A DNA stretch of 31,220 nt from a virus. Position numbers and translations under genes: made by a program. The notes under the pieces were generated by a model, which was not told the DNA's origin, ran no database searches, and saw nothing but the letters and a program-made list of their open reading frames with translations. How positions within the stretch are numbered: the stretch's first letter is position 1; each line of letters starts with the position of its first letter. Below, piece by piece: positions 5,218 to 29,907 of the stretch. The stretch covers positions 1 to 31,220 of the IMG/VR virus record IMGVR_UViG_3300037502_001781, one strand, 5' to 3'.

Positions 5218-5507
5218 GGTTTGTGATCGTCCTACTCATCGCCCTGGCCGGCTGCGTTGCCACGCTGCCTGACGATGCCACCATCTCTGCGGACCTCGCC
5301 TGCGAGACGGCCAGGGCAATTGTGCAGTTGCGTGCTCGGCCCAGTGTGCCTGACGACAAGCCCAAGCCGGGCGACAAGTGCCACAACTGCGAAGGCCGAG
5401 GCTACGTTGGCGACGGTGTCGTCAAGGTGAAATGCCAGCCGTGCGGCGGCACTGGCAAGGTGCTGGCCACAGCCAACGCGTGTCCTGATGGGAGGTGCCA
5501 GCCGTGA
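5214..5507 (+). CDS. Small lipoprotein with DnaJ-type zinc motif
   Basis: The 97-residue protein begins at GTG 5214, overlapping the peptidase stop. Residues 1-14 form a lipoprotein signal peptide with lipobox LAGC (MRFVIVLLIALAGC), so the mature N-terminus should be a lipidated Cys. The C-terminal half has two CxxCxGxG modules, CHNCEGRGYV and CQPCGGTGKV, the zinc-binding repeat of DnaJ, and more cysteines at the end. By place it resembles an outer-membrane spanin (Rz1-like), but the zinc motif is not a spanin feature. It may stabilise a disulfide or zinc fold in the periplasm. Confidence 0.65.
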   Translation: MRFVIVLLIALAGCVATLPDDATISADLACETARAIVQLRARPSVPDDKPKPGDKCHNCEGRGYVGDGVVKVKCQPCGGTGKVLATANACPDGRCQP

Positions 5508-5863
5508 CGCCTGCCGATCTGAAAGAGCATGTTTGGCGCAAGCTTGGGCCACGCAAGTGGCTTGTCGGCCGCCAGCAAGTCGATTTGCTCACGCAGCTGG
5601 CCGTTGAGAACTGGCAGACCGACTTCATGCAGGCCGCCGATAGCGACCTAGAGCGGCAGATCGTCGCCCAGGCAACGCTGGCCGACATGAAGCGTGTGCA
5701 CCAGGCCGTGGGCGGCTACGGCGACCGCGAGTACGGCATGGTGTGGCTGTTCCTGCTCTCCGGCGTGGCCAGTGCAATCGTGCAGGTCATGCTGCGATGG
5801 TGGCTCGAGCGGCGAGCCAACCGAGTCATGCTGATGGTCTGGCAGCAGGAGGGGATCAAGTGA
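5504..5863 (+). CDS. Small membrane protein
   Basis: GTG 5504 is chosen because GGAGG at 5491-5495 lies 8 nt upstream and it overlaps the previous stop as GTGA; GTG 5495 is the alternative. The 119-residue product has a charged, helical N-terminal half and one hydrophobic segment (MVWLFLLSGVASAIVQVMLRW) near residues 75-95, followed by a basic tail (LERRANR). This looks like a single-pass protein with a cytoplasmic basic end. It lies in the probable lysis block. No family is recognised. Confidence 0.55.
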   Translation: MTPADLKEHVWRKLGPRKWLVGRQQVDLLTQLAVENWQTDFMQAADSDLERQIVAQATLADMKRVHQAVGGYGDREYGMVWLFLLSGVASAIVQVMLRWWLERRANRVMLMVWQQEGIK

Positions 5864-8073: not shown

Positions 8074-8988
8074 ATGGATGCTGCGTTCATGGGCGACAGA
8101 ACATTAGTCAAGGCGTGTCCCGATTGCGGGGTCACGTTTCACGCACACCATCCGCTGTGCGTTCGATGTGCGCCGTGCCAACGCATCTATCGCAACGCAG
8201 AAACGTCAAAACGTGATTTGGCACGACGCAAGAGGCAGAGGTTGGCAGAGCAGGCCCAGAGCCTGCTAGGGCTGGATCGCCTTGACGTAGTGCGAGACAA
8301 CGGGCATAGGTGCCGCGAGTGCCGAAGAGTGCTGTGGATCAAATGCGGGGAGGCACCCCACTACTGCCACGAATGCCGTCGTATGCGCGATGCACTAGAT
8401 GTCGCAATAGAGGTGATTGCGTTCATTGCCGGGCATGCCATTGGCTGTGGCAATGCGTGCGTGGTATGTGGCGGAATCGTGCCAGTCGTTAGGTGGAAAG
8501 GCAGCAAGACGTGTAGCGAAACATGCAGCGTTGAACTAGGCAGGCATAGGTCAAGAGAGAAGTACGAGCGTCTGACTGGCGTAAAGCCAAAGCCGCTGAA
8601 TGCACGGCGTGTATGCAAGTGGTGTGGGTGTGATGTTATCGGCACGAACGTCAATGGACGTGGTCGCAGTGTGTGTGACCAGTGCGGAATACACCACGGC
8701 ACGTTTAAGGCGAGAGCTCGTCTTTATGGCGTGCGGTACGAACACGTAGACAGAATCGCCGTTTACCAAAGAGACGGGTGGCGTTGTCAGCTATGCGGAC
8801 GGAAGACCTTAAGGCGTGCCATCAGAAACAAGAACACGCAACGCTTGCATCCAAGGTCACCCAGCATTGACCACATCACGCCCATGAGTCGGGGCGGCGA
8901 CCACGTCGAATCAAACTGCCAGTGCGCGTGTCTGTCATGCAACGTCAGGAAGCACGCGAGGCTGATTGGCCAGCGGCGGCTTTTTTAG
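8074..8988 (+). CDS. Multi-zinc-ribbon HNH endonuclease, possible homing enzyme
   Basis: The 304-residue protein has at least five Cys-pair knuckles (C15/C18, C80/C83, C98/C101, C129/C132, C181/C184 and C201/C204). They are followed by a C-terminal HNH nuclease: C238/C241, SIDHITPMSRGGDH with D266-H267, N281, and C286/C289. This is much longer than a packaging HNH. By eye its codons are less GC-rich at third positions than those of its neighbours (many TGT, CGT and GCA codons), which suggests later arrival. Large zinc-rich HNH proteins in phages are often free-standing homing endonucleases. It lies only 0.8 kb upstream of the interrupted Walker A site of terL. ATG 8074 or 8089 may be the start. 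Confidence 0.75.
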   Translation: MDAAFMGDRTLVKACPDCGVTFHAHHPLCVRCAPCQRIYRNAETSKRDLARRKRQRLAEQAQSLLGLDRLDVVRDNGHRCRECRRVLWIKCGEAPHYCHECRRMRDALDVAIEVIAFIAGHAIGCGNACVVCGGIVPVVRWKGSKTCSETCSVELGRHRSREKYERLTGVKPKPLNARRVCKWCGCDVIGTNVNGRGRSVCDQCGIHHGTFKARARLYGVRYEHVDRIAVYQRDGWRCQLCGRKTLRRAIRNKNTQRLHPRSPSIDHITPMSRGGDHVESNCQCACLSCNVRKHARLIGQRRLF

Positions 8989-9108: not shown

Positions 9109-9576
9109 ATGGCTAAAGCCGGCCGCAGACCCAAGCCCACCGCCCTGAAGATTCTTGAGGGGACCGATCACGGGCCACGCAAGGTAGAGCCGAGCCTGCC
9201 GCTAGGGATTCCGCCGATGCCGAAGCGGCTCGAGGTGGACCAGGTCGCCGTGGAGAAGTGGCACGAGCTCGCCGGCATCTTGACCCGCATGGGAGTCTTG
9301 ACGTTGGGCGATGGCGAGGCGTTGGCCACGCTGTGCGAGGTGCACTCGGCGGAGCAGTCGTGCCTGCTGCAGCTGCGGGCTGGCGGCGCTGTGATGCACA
9401 CAGACTTAGGTGGCGTGAAGCCAAACCCGGCCGGGCCGCTGTATCGGTCGCTCGTCTCGCAGAAGGCGTCGCTGCTCAGCGAGTTCGGTCTGACCCCGTC
9501 GTCGAGGACGAAACTTGCCACGAAGGCCGAAGTCCAAAAAGACGAGCTTGAAGAGTTCTTCACCGCACACGGGTGA
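9109..9576 (+). CDS. terS: Terminase small subunit (P27 family)
   Basis: The 155-residue product matches P27-type small terminases: GRRPKPTALKILEGTDHGPR at the start, followed by PMPKRL, a W-x-x-L-A helix (AVEKWHELAGILTRMGVLTL), and the conserved later region GVKPNPAGPLYRSLVSQK. Small terminases bind the packaging start site and load the large subunit. AAGGAG lies 9 nt upstream of ATG 9109. Its end overlaps the start of the large-subunit frame. Confidence 0.9.
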   Translation: MAKAGRRPKPTALKILEGTDHGPRKVEPSLPLGIPPMPKRLEVDQVAVEKWHELAGILTRMGVLTLGDGEALATLCEVHSAEQSCLLQLRAGGAVMHTDLGGVKPNPAGPLYRSLVSQKASLLSEFGLTPSSRTKLATKAEVQKDELEEFFTAHG

Positions 9577-9805
9577 GAGTCGGCCCGGCATCGACCAGGC
9601 CAAGGCGGAGCGGGTGTACGCCTTCTTTGAGAAGGTGCTCAAGCACTCAAAGGGCCAGACGGCCGGGCAGCCGTTCATGCTCCTGCCATGGCAGAAGTAC
9701 GTACTAGGAGAAATCTTCGGCCGGTGTAAGCCGGACGGTACGCGACAGTACCGCCAGGCATACATCGAGATACCGAAGAAAAATCCCTTGGCCCCTGCGG
9801 CGTAA
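9515..9805 (+). CDS. terL: Terminase large subunit, N-terminal part up to the interrupted Walker A
   Basis: This frame encodes the start of an HK97-type large terminase: ERVYAFFEKVLKHSKGQTAG, then FMLLPWQKYVLGEIFG and RQAYIEIPKKN. PWQ-x-x-x-L-x-x-x-F-G and the basic strand before the P-loop are hallmarks of the family. The P-loop should read KKNGKST, but after AAT (9782-9784, Asn) the frame runs into a hairpin and stops at TAA 9803-9805. Starts available are TTG 9515 or TTG 9548; no ATG is present. The remainder continues in another frame from 9828. Joined across the gap, the protein is about 524-535 residues, normal for the family. As an isolated 90-residue peptide it would be useless, so the two parts are probably expressed as one. 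Confidence 0.8.
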   Translation: MPRRPKSKKTSLKSSSPHTGESRPGIDQAKAERVYAFFEKVLKHSKGQTAGQPFMLLPWQKYVLGEIFGRCKPDGTRQYRQAYIEIPKKNPLAPAA

Positions 9806-9830
9806 GTCGTAGGGGCCAAGGGGACGCAAC
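9785..9830 (+). other. 46-nt hairpin insert in the terL Walker A, candidate ribosome-bypass element
   Basis: The insert lies between AAT (9782-9784) and GGA (9831-9833). Bases 9785-9796 (CCCTTGGCCCCT) pair perfectly with 9811-9822. The stem continues with five pairs (9797-9801 with 9806-9810, two of them G-U) and closes on a GTAA tetraloop of GNRA type. The loop contains the in-frame stop TAA (9803-9805). The downstream frame is closed as well by TAG 9810-9812. The last codon of the insert is AAC (9828-9830), Asn like the take-off AAT, and one tRNA-Asn reads both. AAGGGG at 9818-9823 is a Shine-Dalgarno-like run before the landing codon. Skipping 43 nt plus re-pairing gives PKKNGKST. This layout matches the T4 gene 60 bypass; the function here is inferred. 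Confidence 0.7.
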
Positions 9831-11168
9831 GGAAAGTCAACGCTGCTGGCTGGCATTAGCCTGTACGCACTCTTGGCGGACTCTGAAGCCGGCGCTGAAA
9901 TCTACGGGTGCGGATCGGATCGTGAACAAGGCTCGATCATCTACCGCGAGGCGGCGTCGATGGTCCGATCTTCGCCAGCGCTGAGCAAGGTGCTCGAGGT
10001 CGTCGACAGCCGGAAGAGCATCATTCACCGGGCAAGCAACTCGTTCTATCGGGTGCTCTCAGCGGATGCGTTCCGGGCTGAGGGTCTCAACATTCACTGC
10101 CTGCTGTTCGACGAGCTGCACGCCCAGCGAGGTGACCGCCGGCTGTGGGATGCCCTGCGGTACGGCGGTGCGGCCCGGCGGCAGCCGCTGGTGCTGTCGA
10201 TTACCACGGCCGGCGAGTTCAACAAGTCGCACCTGTGGTGGGAGCAGCACGACTACGCCGAGCGGTGCATTGCCGACCCGACCTTTGACCCGAGCTTCTT
10301 CGGGTGCATCTACGCTGCCGACCGGGAAGATGACTGGCAGTTGCCGAAGGTCTGGCACAAAGCCAACCCGTCGCTTGGCGAGACGATCAGCGAGGAGTCT
10401 TTTGCAGCCGACTGTCGTGAGGCAGCCAACTCAGCCACCAAGCTCTCGTCGTTCCTGCGGTATCGGCTCAACGTGCCGACGACCACCGACGTGAAGTGGG
10501 TGCGGCCTGACCAGATCGAGACGTGCATGGCCGGGCCGCCCGAGCCGCTCGACGGCCGGGAGTTCTGGGCGGGGCTCGACCTGGCCAGCACGTTCGACAC
10601 GTCGGCCTTTGTGGCGTGGTTCCCGGCCGATGACGGGCACGTCGATGTCTACGCCCACTTCTGGATTCCTGGCGAGAACGCTGCCCGGCGTGAGCGTGAG
10701 GACCGGGTGCCGTACTCGCAGTGGCAGCGCGATGGGTGGCTGACGATCACGGACGGCCGCAGTACCGACTACGGCGTGATTCAACGCGACATCATGGCCT
10801 TCTGTGAGAAGCACCGTTGTCGTGGGCTAGGCATCGACAGGTGGAACGCCACGATGCTGGCCCAGCAGCTCGCGGGCGAGGGCTTGCCGGTCGTCATGTT
10901 CGGGCAAGGGTTCGCCTCGATGAGCTCGCCGACCAAGCGACTTGAGGCGTTGTTAGTCGAGGGAAAACTGCGGTTGGCCGGCAATAGGCTGCTAGGCTGG
11001 CAACTAGGCAACGCAGCCGTGCAGATGGACCCGGCTGGTAACGTCAAGTTGTCAAAGGCCAAGAGCACAGAGCGGATTGACGGGGCGGTGGCCTTAGCCA
11101 TGGCGTGCGGCATCCACATGGGCGAGCAGCAAAAGCCGACCGAGATGCCGGAAATCTCCTTCTGGTGA
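9828..11168 (+). CDS. terL: Terminase large subunit, C-terminal part (P-loop, ATPase, nuclease)
   Basis: Counting from landing codon AAC 9828, the frame reads NGKSTLLAGISLYALLADSE, i.e. the second half of the Walker A and the helix after it, and continues to TGA 11168 without damage. Walker B is LNIHCLLFDELHAQ, and a coupling region with VLSITTAGEF follows. The nuclease domain begins with FWAGLDLASTFDTSAF (first catalytic Asp), with GIDRWNA and IDGAVALAMA later. These are HK97/YmfN-type terminase features. TTG 9873 and ATG 9960 could act as internal starts, but their products would lack the P-loop. The portal gene follows after 4 nt. Conservation of the full downstream domain argues against a dead gene. 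Confidence 0.85.
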   Translation, partial: NGKSTLLAGISLYALLADSEAGAEIYGCGSDREQGSIIYREAASMVRSSPALSKVLEVVDSRKSIIHRASNSFYRVLSADAFRAEGLNIHCLLFDELHAQRGDRRLWDALRYGGAARRQPLVLSITTAGEFNKSHLWWEQHDYAERCIADPTFDPSFFGCIYAADREDDWQLPKVWHKANPSLGETISEESFAADCREAANSATKLSSFLRYRLNVPTTTDVKWVRPDQIETCMAGPPEPLDGREFWAGLDLASTFDTSAFVAWFPADDGHVDVYAHFWIPGENAARREREDRVPYSQWQRDGWLTITDGRSTDYGVIQRDIMAFCEKHRCRGLGIDRWNATMLAQQLAGEGLPVVMFGQGFASMSSPTKRLEALLVEGKLRLAGNRLLGWQLGNAAVQMDPAGNVKLSKAKSTERIDGAVALAMACGIHMGEQQKPTEMPEISFW

Positions 11169-28849: not shown

Positions 28850-29056
28850 GGAAACCTCCCTTTTTTGATGCCAAGGGAGGACAGTCTAGCCGACGTGTAC
28901 AGATGTTTAATCTACACCCCGTCCGCTTGAACAATCTGCCCTTGGCGGGCTGTTTGATACTGTACAGACTTTCGAGTGCCAGAGGCAAGGCGAGACCCGG
29001 CCTGAGTCGTTTCGGACGGCCGGTTGGCGGCTTGCGAATACTTGCCCAGTGGCGGT
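28850..29056. promoter_or_regulatory. Integrase upstream region with TGTACAGA repeats
   Basis: No gene is seen in these 207 bases. TGTACAGA occurs at 28896-28903 and 28961-28968; the second is part of the palindrome CTGTACAG. A further dyad surrounds the first: GTGTA-CA-GAT ... ATCTACAC. AACA..GCCC-TTGGC-GGGC-TGTT at 28930-28954 can fold. The sites may be arm-type sites of attP or operators of int; no core site can be named. Confidence 0.4.
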
Positions 29057-29084
29057 TTGACACCTCTACCGCCTGCGGTAGAGT
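29057..29084 (+). promoter_or_regulatory. Promoter with operator, driving the HTH gene
   Basis: TTGACA (29057-29062), 16-nt spacer, TAGAGT (29079-29084). The spacer and -10 carry the perfect dyad CTCTACCG-CCTG-CGGTAGAG (29064-29083). The ATG at 29091 is 7 nt after the -10, about where transcription should start. Confidence 0.75.
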
Positions 29085-29090
29085 TGGAGC

Positions 29091-29351
29091 ATGGTTTGCA
29101 TGACACCGGACGGGAAGTGGTGCAGCGTTGAGGAGGCCGTCGAGATCGCCGGCTGCACGGACGGCCTAATTCGCCTGCGGCTCAGGGAGGGGCGGCTGGC
29201 CGGGTTCAAGGCCAACGAGCGGGCCTGGCTGGTCAGCGTCGAGGGCTGCCATGCGCTGCGGAAGGAGCTGGCCCCCCACTCCAATGTCCGCAAGGCGGAA
29301 AAGCGGGCCGAGGCCAAGCCCAAGAAGGCCAGCCGGCGAAAAGCCCGCTAA
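29091..29351 (+). CDS. Small HTH regulator (MerR/excisionase-like), probably leaderless
   Basis: The 86-residue protein holds an excisionase/MerR-type winged HTH: WCSVEEAVEIAGCTDGLIRL, RLREGRLAGFKANERAWLV. After it come a short helix and a basic tail (RRKAR). The start is ATG 29091 or ATG 29100; both are so close to the -10 box that the mRNA has almost no leader, as with some phage repressors. Its own promoter carries the operator shared with two others, so it may bind them and regulate itself. It could also be an excisionase for the nearby integrase. Confidence 0.7.
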   Translation: MVCMTPDGKWCSVEEAVEIAGCTDGLIRLRLREGRLAGFKANERAWLVSVEGCHALRKELAPHSNVRKAEKRAEAKPKKASRRKAR

Positions 29352-29394
29352 CTCCCGGAGTTTCTAGGGTTCCCGAAAAATCTTTCATCCCCTG

Positions 29395-29422
29395 TTGACA
29401 TCTTTACCGATAGCGGTAAACT
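29395..29422 (+). promoter_or_regulatory. Promoter with operator TTTACCG-ATAG-CGGTAAA
   Basis: TTGACA (29395-29400), 16-nt spacer, TAAACT (29417-29422). The perfect dyad at 29403-29420 fills the spacer and part of the -10. It drives the gene at 29477. Confidence 0.78.
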
Positions 29423-29476
29423 AGTGGCATGACGCGGGCACGTGAGACCCGCAAGCCGCCAGCCAGGAGACGAACG

Positions 29477-29713
29477 ATGACGACCGCCACGATGACTGCC
29501 GCCCGCCACAAGGTGACGCACATTGAGTGCACCCGCGGAATCCTGACCGTCGCTGAAGCTCTTGCGATTCTGGCTGCTGGCCAATCCATCAACATGGCGT
29601 TTTCGCAGGTCGTGATGGGCGTTTATCCCGACGGCCGTAAGACGAGCCTCAAGGGCCGCCGGGACGGCCTCTACAACATGGGCGGATCGCTGAGCAGCGA
29701 GGTCGCCCAGTAG
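29477..29713 (+). CDS. Small operator-controlled protein, unknown
   Basis: ATG 29477 has AGGAGA 7 nt upstream and gives 78 residues; ATG 29429 in the same frame is just after the promoter and is a less likely leaderless start. The protein has VTHIECTRGILTVAEALAIL and a basic RKTSLKGRRDGLYNMGGSL part. No family is recognised. Its promoter carries the shared operator, so it is probably expressed in a lysogeny- or early-switch-dependent way. Confidence 0.6.
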   Translation: MTTATMTAARHKVTHIECTRGILTVAEALAILAAGQSINMAFSQVVMGVYPDGRKTSLKGRRDGLYNMGGSLSSEVAQ

Positions 29714-29726
29714 GCTGACCAGCCAA

Positions 29727-29752
29727 GCCAGCCGGCAACAGGGCCGGCTGGC
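29727..29752 (+). terminator. Strong hairpin after the 29477 gene
   Basis: GCCAGCCGGC (29727-29736), loop AACAGG, GCCGGCTGGC (29743-29752): a perfect 10-bp stem. No T run follows, so it may be an mRNA-end or attenuator structure rather than a classic terminator. Confidence 0.45.
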
Positions 29753-29783
29753 ACAGGACTCTACGGCCAAGGAGGGCCACACG

Positions 29784-29855
29784 ATGACGACTCAGTTCTG
29801 GCTCGAGCTTCTGATCATCGCCCTGCGGATCGTTTCCGCCGGCATGGCCGGTTGA
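29784..29855 (+). CDS. 23-residue hydrophobic microprotein
   Basis: AAGGAGG lies 9 nt before ATG 29784. The peptide MTTQFWLELLIIALRIVSAG plus MAG is hydrophobic and long enough to cross a membrane. Its TGA overlaps the next TTGACA box. Strong ribosome binding site and compact place support it; there is no homology to use. Confidence 0.5.
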   Translation: MTTQFWLELLIIALRIVSAGMAG

Positions 29856-29907
29856 CATCTTTACCGCTATCGGTATCCTGCTGCAACGCTTTACCGATAA
29901 CGGCAGA
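29852..29907 (+). promoter_or_regulatory. Promoter with two operator-like dyads
   Basis: TTGACA (29852-29857), 16-nt spacer, TATCCT (29874-29879). TTTACCG-CTAT-CGGTATC (29860-29877) covers the spacer, and TTTACCG-ATAA-CGGCAGA (29890-29907) lies just downstream. Both right arms are imperfect. Downstream, CGTGTACACG (29911-29920) is a perfect palindrome of another type. Confidence 0.7.

Follow-up and report, generated by a model that had tools for sequence, protein, structure and literature searches.

The window analysed here, a 31,220-nt stretch (positions 1 to 31,220 of IMG/VR virus record IMGVR_UViG_3300037502_001781), contains a terL gene that is cut between PKKN and GKST by a 46-nt insert at 9785–9830. 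A sequence-only reading of this DNA had described the insert and proposed that ribosomes bypass it, and the features on which it relied are present base for base. The locus is laid out as follows, the take-off and landing roles being putative.

9515..9784, plus strand: terL exon 1, an open frame up to the take-off AAT (list of open reading frames); tblastn alignment to intact relatives stops at 9784
9722..9767, plus strand: predicted 5′ stem-loop (fold), its end separated from the take-off codon by 14 nt
9782..9784, plus strand: take-off codon AAT, Asn of PKKN (sequence read)
9785..9830, plus strand: inserted element, type A, 46 nt with the landing codon included; missing in 25 of 26 close relatives, present in contig L008
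9785..9822, plus strand: 17-bp hairpin (fold), in which the single stem change of L008 still pairs
9785–9801, plus strand: hairpin 5′ arm CCCTTGGCCCCTGCGGC (sequence read)
9802–9805, plus strand: hairpin loop GTAA (sequence read)
9803..9805, plus strand: TAA stop in the exon 1 frame (sequence read)
9806–9822, plus strand: hairpin 3′ arm GTCGTAGGGGCCAAGGG (sequence read)
9810..9812, plus strand: TAG stop in the exon 2 frame (sequence read)
9823..9827, plus strand: unpaired tail GACGC between stem and landing codon (sequence and fold)
9828..9830, plus strand: landing codon AAC (Asn), after which reading resumes GGAAAGTCAACG (sequence read)
9831..11168, plus strand: terL exon 2, GKST to stop, 445 aa, holding the rest of TerL_ATPase and TerL_nuclease (Pfam); dN/dS 0.066 against L008

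The hairpin with its GTAA tetraloop, the two stops inside it and the pair of Asn codons, all claimed beforehand, are borne out by the sequence and, for the hairpin, also by folding. The start codon of exon 1 is uncertain, homology to intact TerL beginning at about 9572. Because TAA lies in the exon 1 frame and TAG in the exon 2 frame, the halves cannot be joined by a single frameshift; the third frame is open from 9730 to 9981, and the stops alone do not exclude a double shift. A chance hairpin was ruled out by stability, the 90-nt region having a minimum free energy (MFE) of −43.9 kcal/mol against a mean of −26.1 for shuffled sequences (z = −5.6; 0 of 200 shuffles). One proposed feature failed: AAGGGG, read as a Shine-Dalgarno-like aid before the landing codon, merely forms the end of the 3′ stem arm and does not recur in the sister elements described below. 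Rfam gave no family at gathering threshold anywhere in the window, and no group I or group II intron covariance model matched there. Another intact terL, which would have counted against the sequence-only reading, was found neither in the window record, where the only other match was the hairpin's own reverse complement, nor in a 40-kb relative (G009), where only its own split terL copy was found.

Searching IMG/VR with the downstream part of TerL as query yielded 30 relatives (best segments 83–98% identity), of which the 26 with sequence across Walker A were used for comparison of the insert. This comparison with close TerL genes, suggested beforehand as a check, supports an insertion: in 25 of the 26 the 46 nt are missing, and PKKN or its equivalent runs straight into GKST with 0 extra nt. 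Two of these 25 (L029 and L030) have a different insert further on in terL. The same 46 nt are present in L008, a contig from another metagenome, with one stem change, A to G, that keeps the pairing; a stretch of ~80 nt upstream of the insert is identical in both, and a stem pattern search found L008 as the sole contig besides the window. Since an independent contig carries the insert with a pairing-compatible change and 25 other relatives read through, the insert is, on this comparison, not an assembly error. The contigs are metagenomic and amplification can create hairpins, and an assembly or amplification artefact could be suspected on that account, but the window insert occurs in two different metagenome records and an element at a second site, site B, in about 15 contigs. 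This recurrence, together with compensatory variants and exact boundaries, led us to reject an artefact, to which we give next to no credence.

The insert thus stands as originally described, but not as a solitary one: it is only one member of what appears to be a mobile family at seven catalogued sites. Systematic tblastn between loci, which gave exact breaks, and a hairpin scan located hairpin inserts of 46–52 nt (known lengths 46, 48, 50, 51 and 52 nt); six of their sites lie in terL and the seventh in a glycosyltransferase-like gene. They are given here with the codon that precedes the gap and the final codon within it.

Site A: between PKKN and GKST, Walker A; 46 nt; AAT/AAC
Site G: between PKKNG and KST, Walker A, one codon downstream of A; 48 nt; GGG/GGT
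Site F: between ADR and EQ; 46 nt; CGG/CGA
Site B: between EGL and NIHC; 50 or 48 nt; CTG/CTG, once CTG/CTA (L038)
Site D: between DEL and HAQR, inside Walker B; 50 nt; CTG/CTG
Site E: between RLW and DALRY; 50, 51 or 52 nt; TGG with AGA or CGC
Site C: glycosyltransferase-like gene; 50 nt; TGG/TGG

All elements contain a hairpin stem-loop, with stems of 17–22 bp, and the stems show kinship between sites (A with G, E with F, B with D, C with D). Element B was first seen as a 50-nt break in terL of L029 and L030, where the sequence reads GGA CTG, a hairpin of 20 bp or more that has TTCG as its loop, then a short tail, CTG and AAC; ten contigs found by a search with its stem have the element at precisely this position, and further ones came from a core-pattern search. 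A stop stands directly after the take-off codon in no element; C and some B forms have it as the second codon, and in the others it lies deeper. Apparent frame breaks in L070, L076, L079, L016, L017 and L135:1579 were set aside as alignment effects at gene ends or as lacking a hairpin, and matches to the UUCG-core pattern in other viral contigs were mostly ordinary short terminator-like hairpins. The terL gene of L034 (minus strand, about 5380–5550) has B and E inserts of 50 nt each, so that bypass would have to happen twice in the space of about 20 codons to give the protein; in L039, B occurs together with C. The 50-nt hairpin in the glycosyltransferase-like phage gene, seen in L039 (about 910–958), L062 and L064, has a stem like that of terL element D.

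Exon 2 of carriers has a dN/dS of 0.06–0.18 in most pairs, at dS 0.1–1.1, and of 0.28–0.33 in the most diverged pairs, and no decay beyond the insert was seen among 27 distinct carriers. Judged by these substitution ratios, the split reading frames are preserved under purifying selection. If the insert instead killed or split terL, leaving nonfunctional phages or a TerL made as two polypeptides, open halves and stops that block read-through and single frameshift would be expected features, but the low ratios at high dS and the lack of decay would not; moreover, the break lies inside the P-loop and the first start codon of the exon 2 frame comes no earlier than 9873. We regard such a loss or division of the gene as improbable.

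The stems were compared across nine distinct B and D elements, in which 97% of cells are paired, with 11 double-change cells and none of 500 shuffles scoring as high; sliding the pairing by one base lowers it to 53% or less. In the D element of a distant clade (L242), GAG/CTC has become GCG/CGC with pairing kept. The stem is, by this covariation, under selection. Insert lengths fall in all reading frames while the exons remain intact (B has forms of 48 and 50 nt, and E has forms of 50, 51 and 52 nt), so that no single frameshift or read-through rule rescues the protein, and to judge from these lengths the insert must be ignored as a unit. Stop read-through or a double frameshift, producing TerL with about 16 extra residues, could draw on the open third frame of the window and on the 48- and 51-nt forms, which keep the frame but contain one stop (L078, L153 and the L104 group). 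Yet the coexisting 50-, 51- and 52-nt forms at one site would each need a different recoding, the added residues would fall inside Walker A or B, and the stem is kept by covariation, not by codons; we consider this reading very improbable.

At six of the seven sites (A, B, C, D, F and G), E being the exception, the codon that precedes the gap is identical to or synonymous with the final gap codon. All four mismatches outside E (AAT/AAC, CGG/CGA, GGG/GGT and, in L038, CTG/CTA) are at the third position and synonymous, and we calculate that, with random triplets, chance would give synonymous landing codons at these six sites with a probability of about 1e-7. The matched-codon criterion of T4-type bypassing is met by the window element if the synonymous Asn codons AAT and AAC count. 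By itself, an exactly repeated triplet could also have arisen as a target-site duplication during insertion; that could account for B, C and D, but it leaves unexplained why every pair that differs is synonymous. At site E, represented by at least ten contigs, the take-off codon is TGG and the landing triplet AGA or CGC; in carriers L104, L106–L110, L135, L199–L201, L244 and L034 the last insert triplet is always Arg and the take-off codon Trp. Because tRNA-Trp cannot pair with AGA or CGC, site E does not fit re-pairing. Take-off at upstream Arg codons instead (skipping Leu-Trp) was rejected, giving no consistent codon match either. Site E would involve either positional landing, a product other than the one drawn, or excision.

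Excision is the core of another explanation, under which the elements are tiny RNA introns and an unknown RNA-processing reaction removes the hairpin and joins the exons before translation. Removal would have to be exact and independent of frame (50, 51 and 52 nt at E), and such a reaction would accommodate the unmatched codons of site E, the juxtaposition of exon ends by the stem and a scatter in conserved motifs that is typical of homing introns. However, excision blind to codon phase would not predict codon-phased synonymous triplets at six of seven sites with every difference at the third position, neither boundary has a conserved splice-site sequence, and the lack of an Rfam match means that no group I or II intron is involved. 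We know of no self-contained 46–52-nt hairpin intron in bacteria. RNA excision is not excluded, and we think it unlikely.

A TerL tree was built quickly with FastTree from columns downstream of all sites and comprises 125 distinct sequences, of which the 27 element carriers are scattered over the tree; this scatter implies that the elements move. Counting strongly supported branches only, the minimum number of changes is 5 for B, 6 for E and 4 for D, and gain cannot be told from loss by these counts. The 39 nt just upstream of site B are identical in eight diverged carriers (L029, L030, L033, L034, L038, L040, L153 and L165): 13 codons are frozen at every synonymous position, with a sharp end, and the downstream side diverges at once. 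From its conservation, this tract would be either co-transferred or a 5′ signal. It can pair as CTGAGTGC-TGAC-GCATTCAG, a fold more stable than in about 94% of non-carriers, and in the window the region −75..−13 has an MFE of −27.8 compared with −19.8 (sd 3.3) in non-carriers. The 5′ structure exceeds non-carriers in predicted stability at A, B and D but not at E, F and G; a uniform requirement for a 5′ stem-loop is unsupported, and the one predicted at 9722..9767 is suggestive only, a lead. Homing by means of an upstream HNH endonuclease was also considered and found to have no association with the inserts. The HNH gene concerned lies at 8074–8988 of the window, upstream of terS, and occurs in relatives with and without inserts alike.

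We consider it probable, with no RNA or protein data to hand, that the insert belongs to a family of small (46–52 nt) mobile elements that are tolerated through ribosome bypass. Bypass as a mechanism is supported by the absence of the insert from relatives, the purifying selection, the codon match at six of seven sites, the covarying stems and gaps that fall within the range of T4-type sliding, which is processive up to 56 nt (PMC11194080); the event itself is inferred, without RNA or peptide evidence. A translating ribosome would arrive at the take-off codon, next to which a very stable hairpin begins, and peptidyl-tRNA would detach there; the ribosome would then cross the folded hairpin, which brings both codons within about 1–9 nt, and re-pairing on the matching landing codon just past the hairpin would give full-length TerL. 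The elements themselves would spread between phages like homing elements, into conserved terL motifs. Bypass would explain the codon phasing, the synonymous third-position differences, the stable hairpins and the gap lengths. The main problem for it, as far as the codons tell, is the landing of TGG on AGA or CGC at site E; hairpins that by comparison are much longer than the T4 take-off loop, and a modelled 5′ stem-loop suggested for only three of the sites, also speak against it. More tentatively, and with slightly more doubt than belief, we suggest an undescribed class of sub-60-nt mobile elements that spread horizontally among phages, sit between codons of the most conserved motifs of essential genes and are hidden by ribosome hopping over a folded hairpin, at E without codon re-pairing.

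Bypassing in T4 gene 60 involves a 50-nt gap, matched codons, a take-off stem-loop, a stop directly after take-off, a 5′ stem-loop and a nascent-peptide signal, with a Shine-Dalgarno-like sequence before landing that has a modest effect (PMC5009743, PMC11194080). The phage family resembles it in gap length, in matched or synonymous codons at all sites but E, in stops within the gap, in a hairpin that starts at the take-off codon and possibly in a 5′ stem-loop for elements A and B. It differs in occupying many sites in two genes, one encoding an essential packaging ATPase, in its much longer stems, in codons that are synonymous and not always identical, in the placement of the stop, in having no evidence for a Shine-Dalgarno aid or nascent-peptide signal, in being mobile and scattered, and in the unmatched site E. 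The mitochondrial byps of Magnusiomyces capitatus, in which take-off and landing codons are matched in many, but not all, cases, likewise form a family whose small inserts lie in essential genes and have to be skipped (PMC5009743). Unlike byps, the present elements are found in phage contigs, with bacterial and not mitochondrial ribosomes inferred, and have strong covarying hairpins, related elements being common to sites and phage lineages. Streptomyces phage Hau3 also has a proposed bypass in a terminase gene, with a short gap described as linked to a rare UUA codon (PMC5009743). That gap is much shorter than those of the hairpin family, and Hau3 represents no such family. In phage terminase genes, homing introns and inteins occupy the most conserved motifs and have a scattered distribution. 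The hairpin elements share both properties, whereas they are far smaller, encode no endonuclease and have no intron signature. The best reading of these comparisons is that the elements would work like T4 gene 60 and the yeast byps without being demonstrably members of either; we do not file them under one or the other because the Shine-Dalgarno feature fails, stop placement and the 5′ loop are indecisive and the yeast setting is inapplicable.

To our knowledge, nearly all evidence for programmed bypassing has so far come from a single phage gene and a single group of yeast mitochondria. With dozens of natural variants, spread over seven sites, two genes and many phages, the rules of bypass could be tested comparatively, including codon matching, stem, tail and gap length. 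If the proposal is true, the elements would correspond, at the level of translation, to inteins and introns and would give selfish DNA a third means of residing in essential genes without harm; were RNA excision responsible instead, the intron would be smaller than any known to us in bacteria. Automatic gene finding probably overlooks such elements, as they interrupt the reading frame of terL. No report of a terL hairpin-insert family was found in the literature searched, which left out most subscription journals, and element B with its flanks had no match among isolated phages.

The carrier contigs are phage, with terS, terL and portal genes. In genome collections the nearest TerLs are from Phycisphaerales and other Planctomycetota assemblies. 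TerL relatives occur in 21 of 397 Phycisphaerae genomes and have no internal stops there, and two core patterns searched in the 397 genomes gave one core-only match for the UUCG core and zero for the GAGA core. Because the elements were essentially not found in these genomes, the host of the window phage is an inference. Near the end of the window, at 29048–29875, there are three 33-nt direct repeats around TTGACA..CTTTACCG...CGGTA, possibly promoter or operator repeats.
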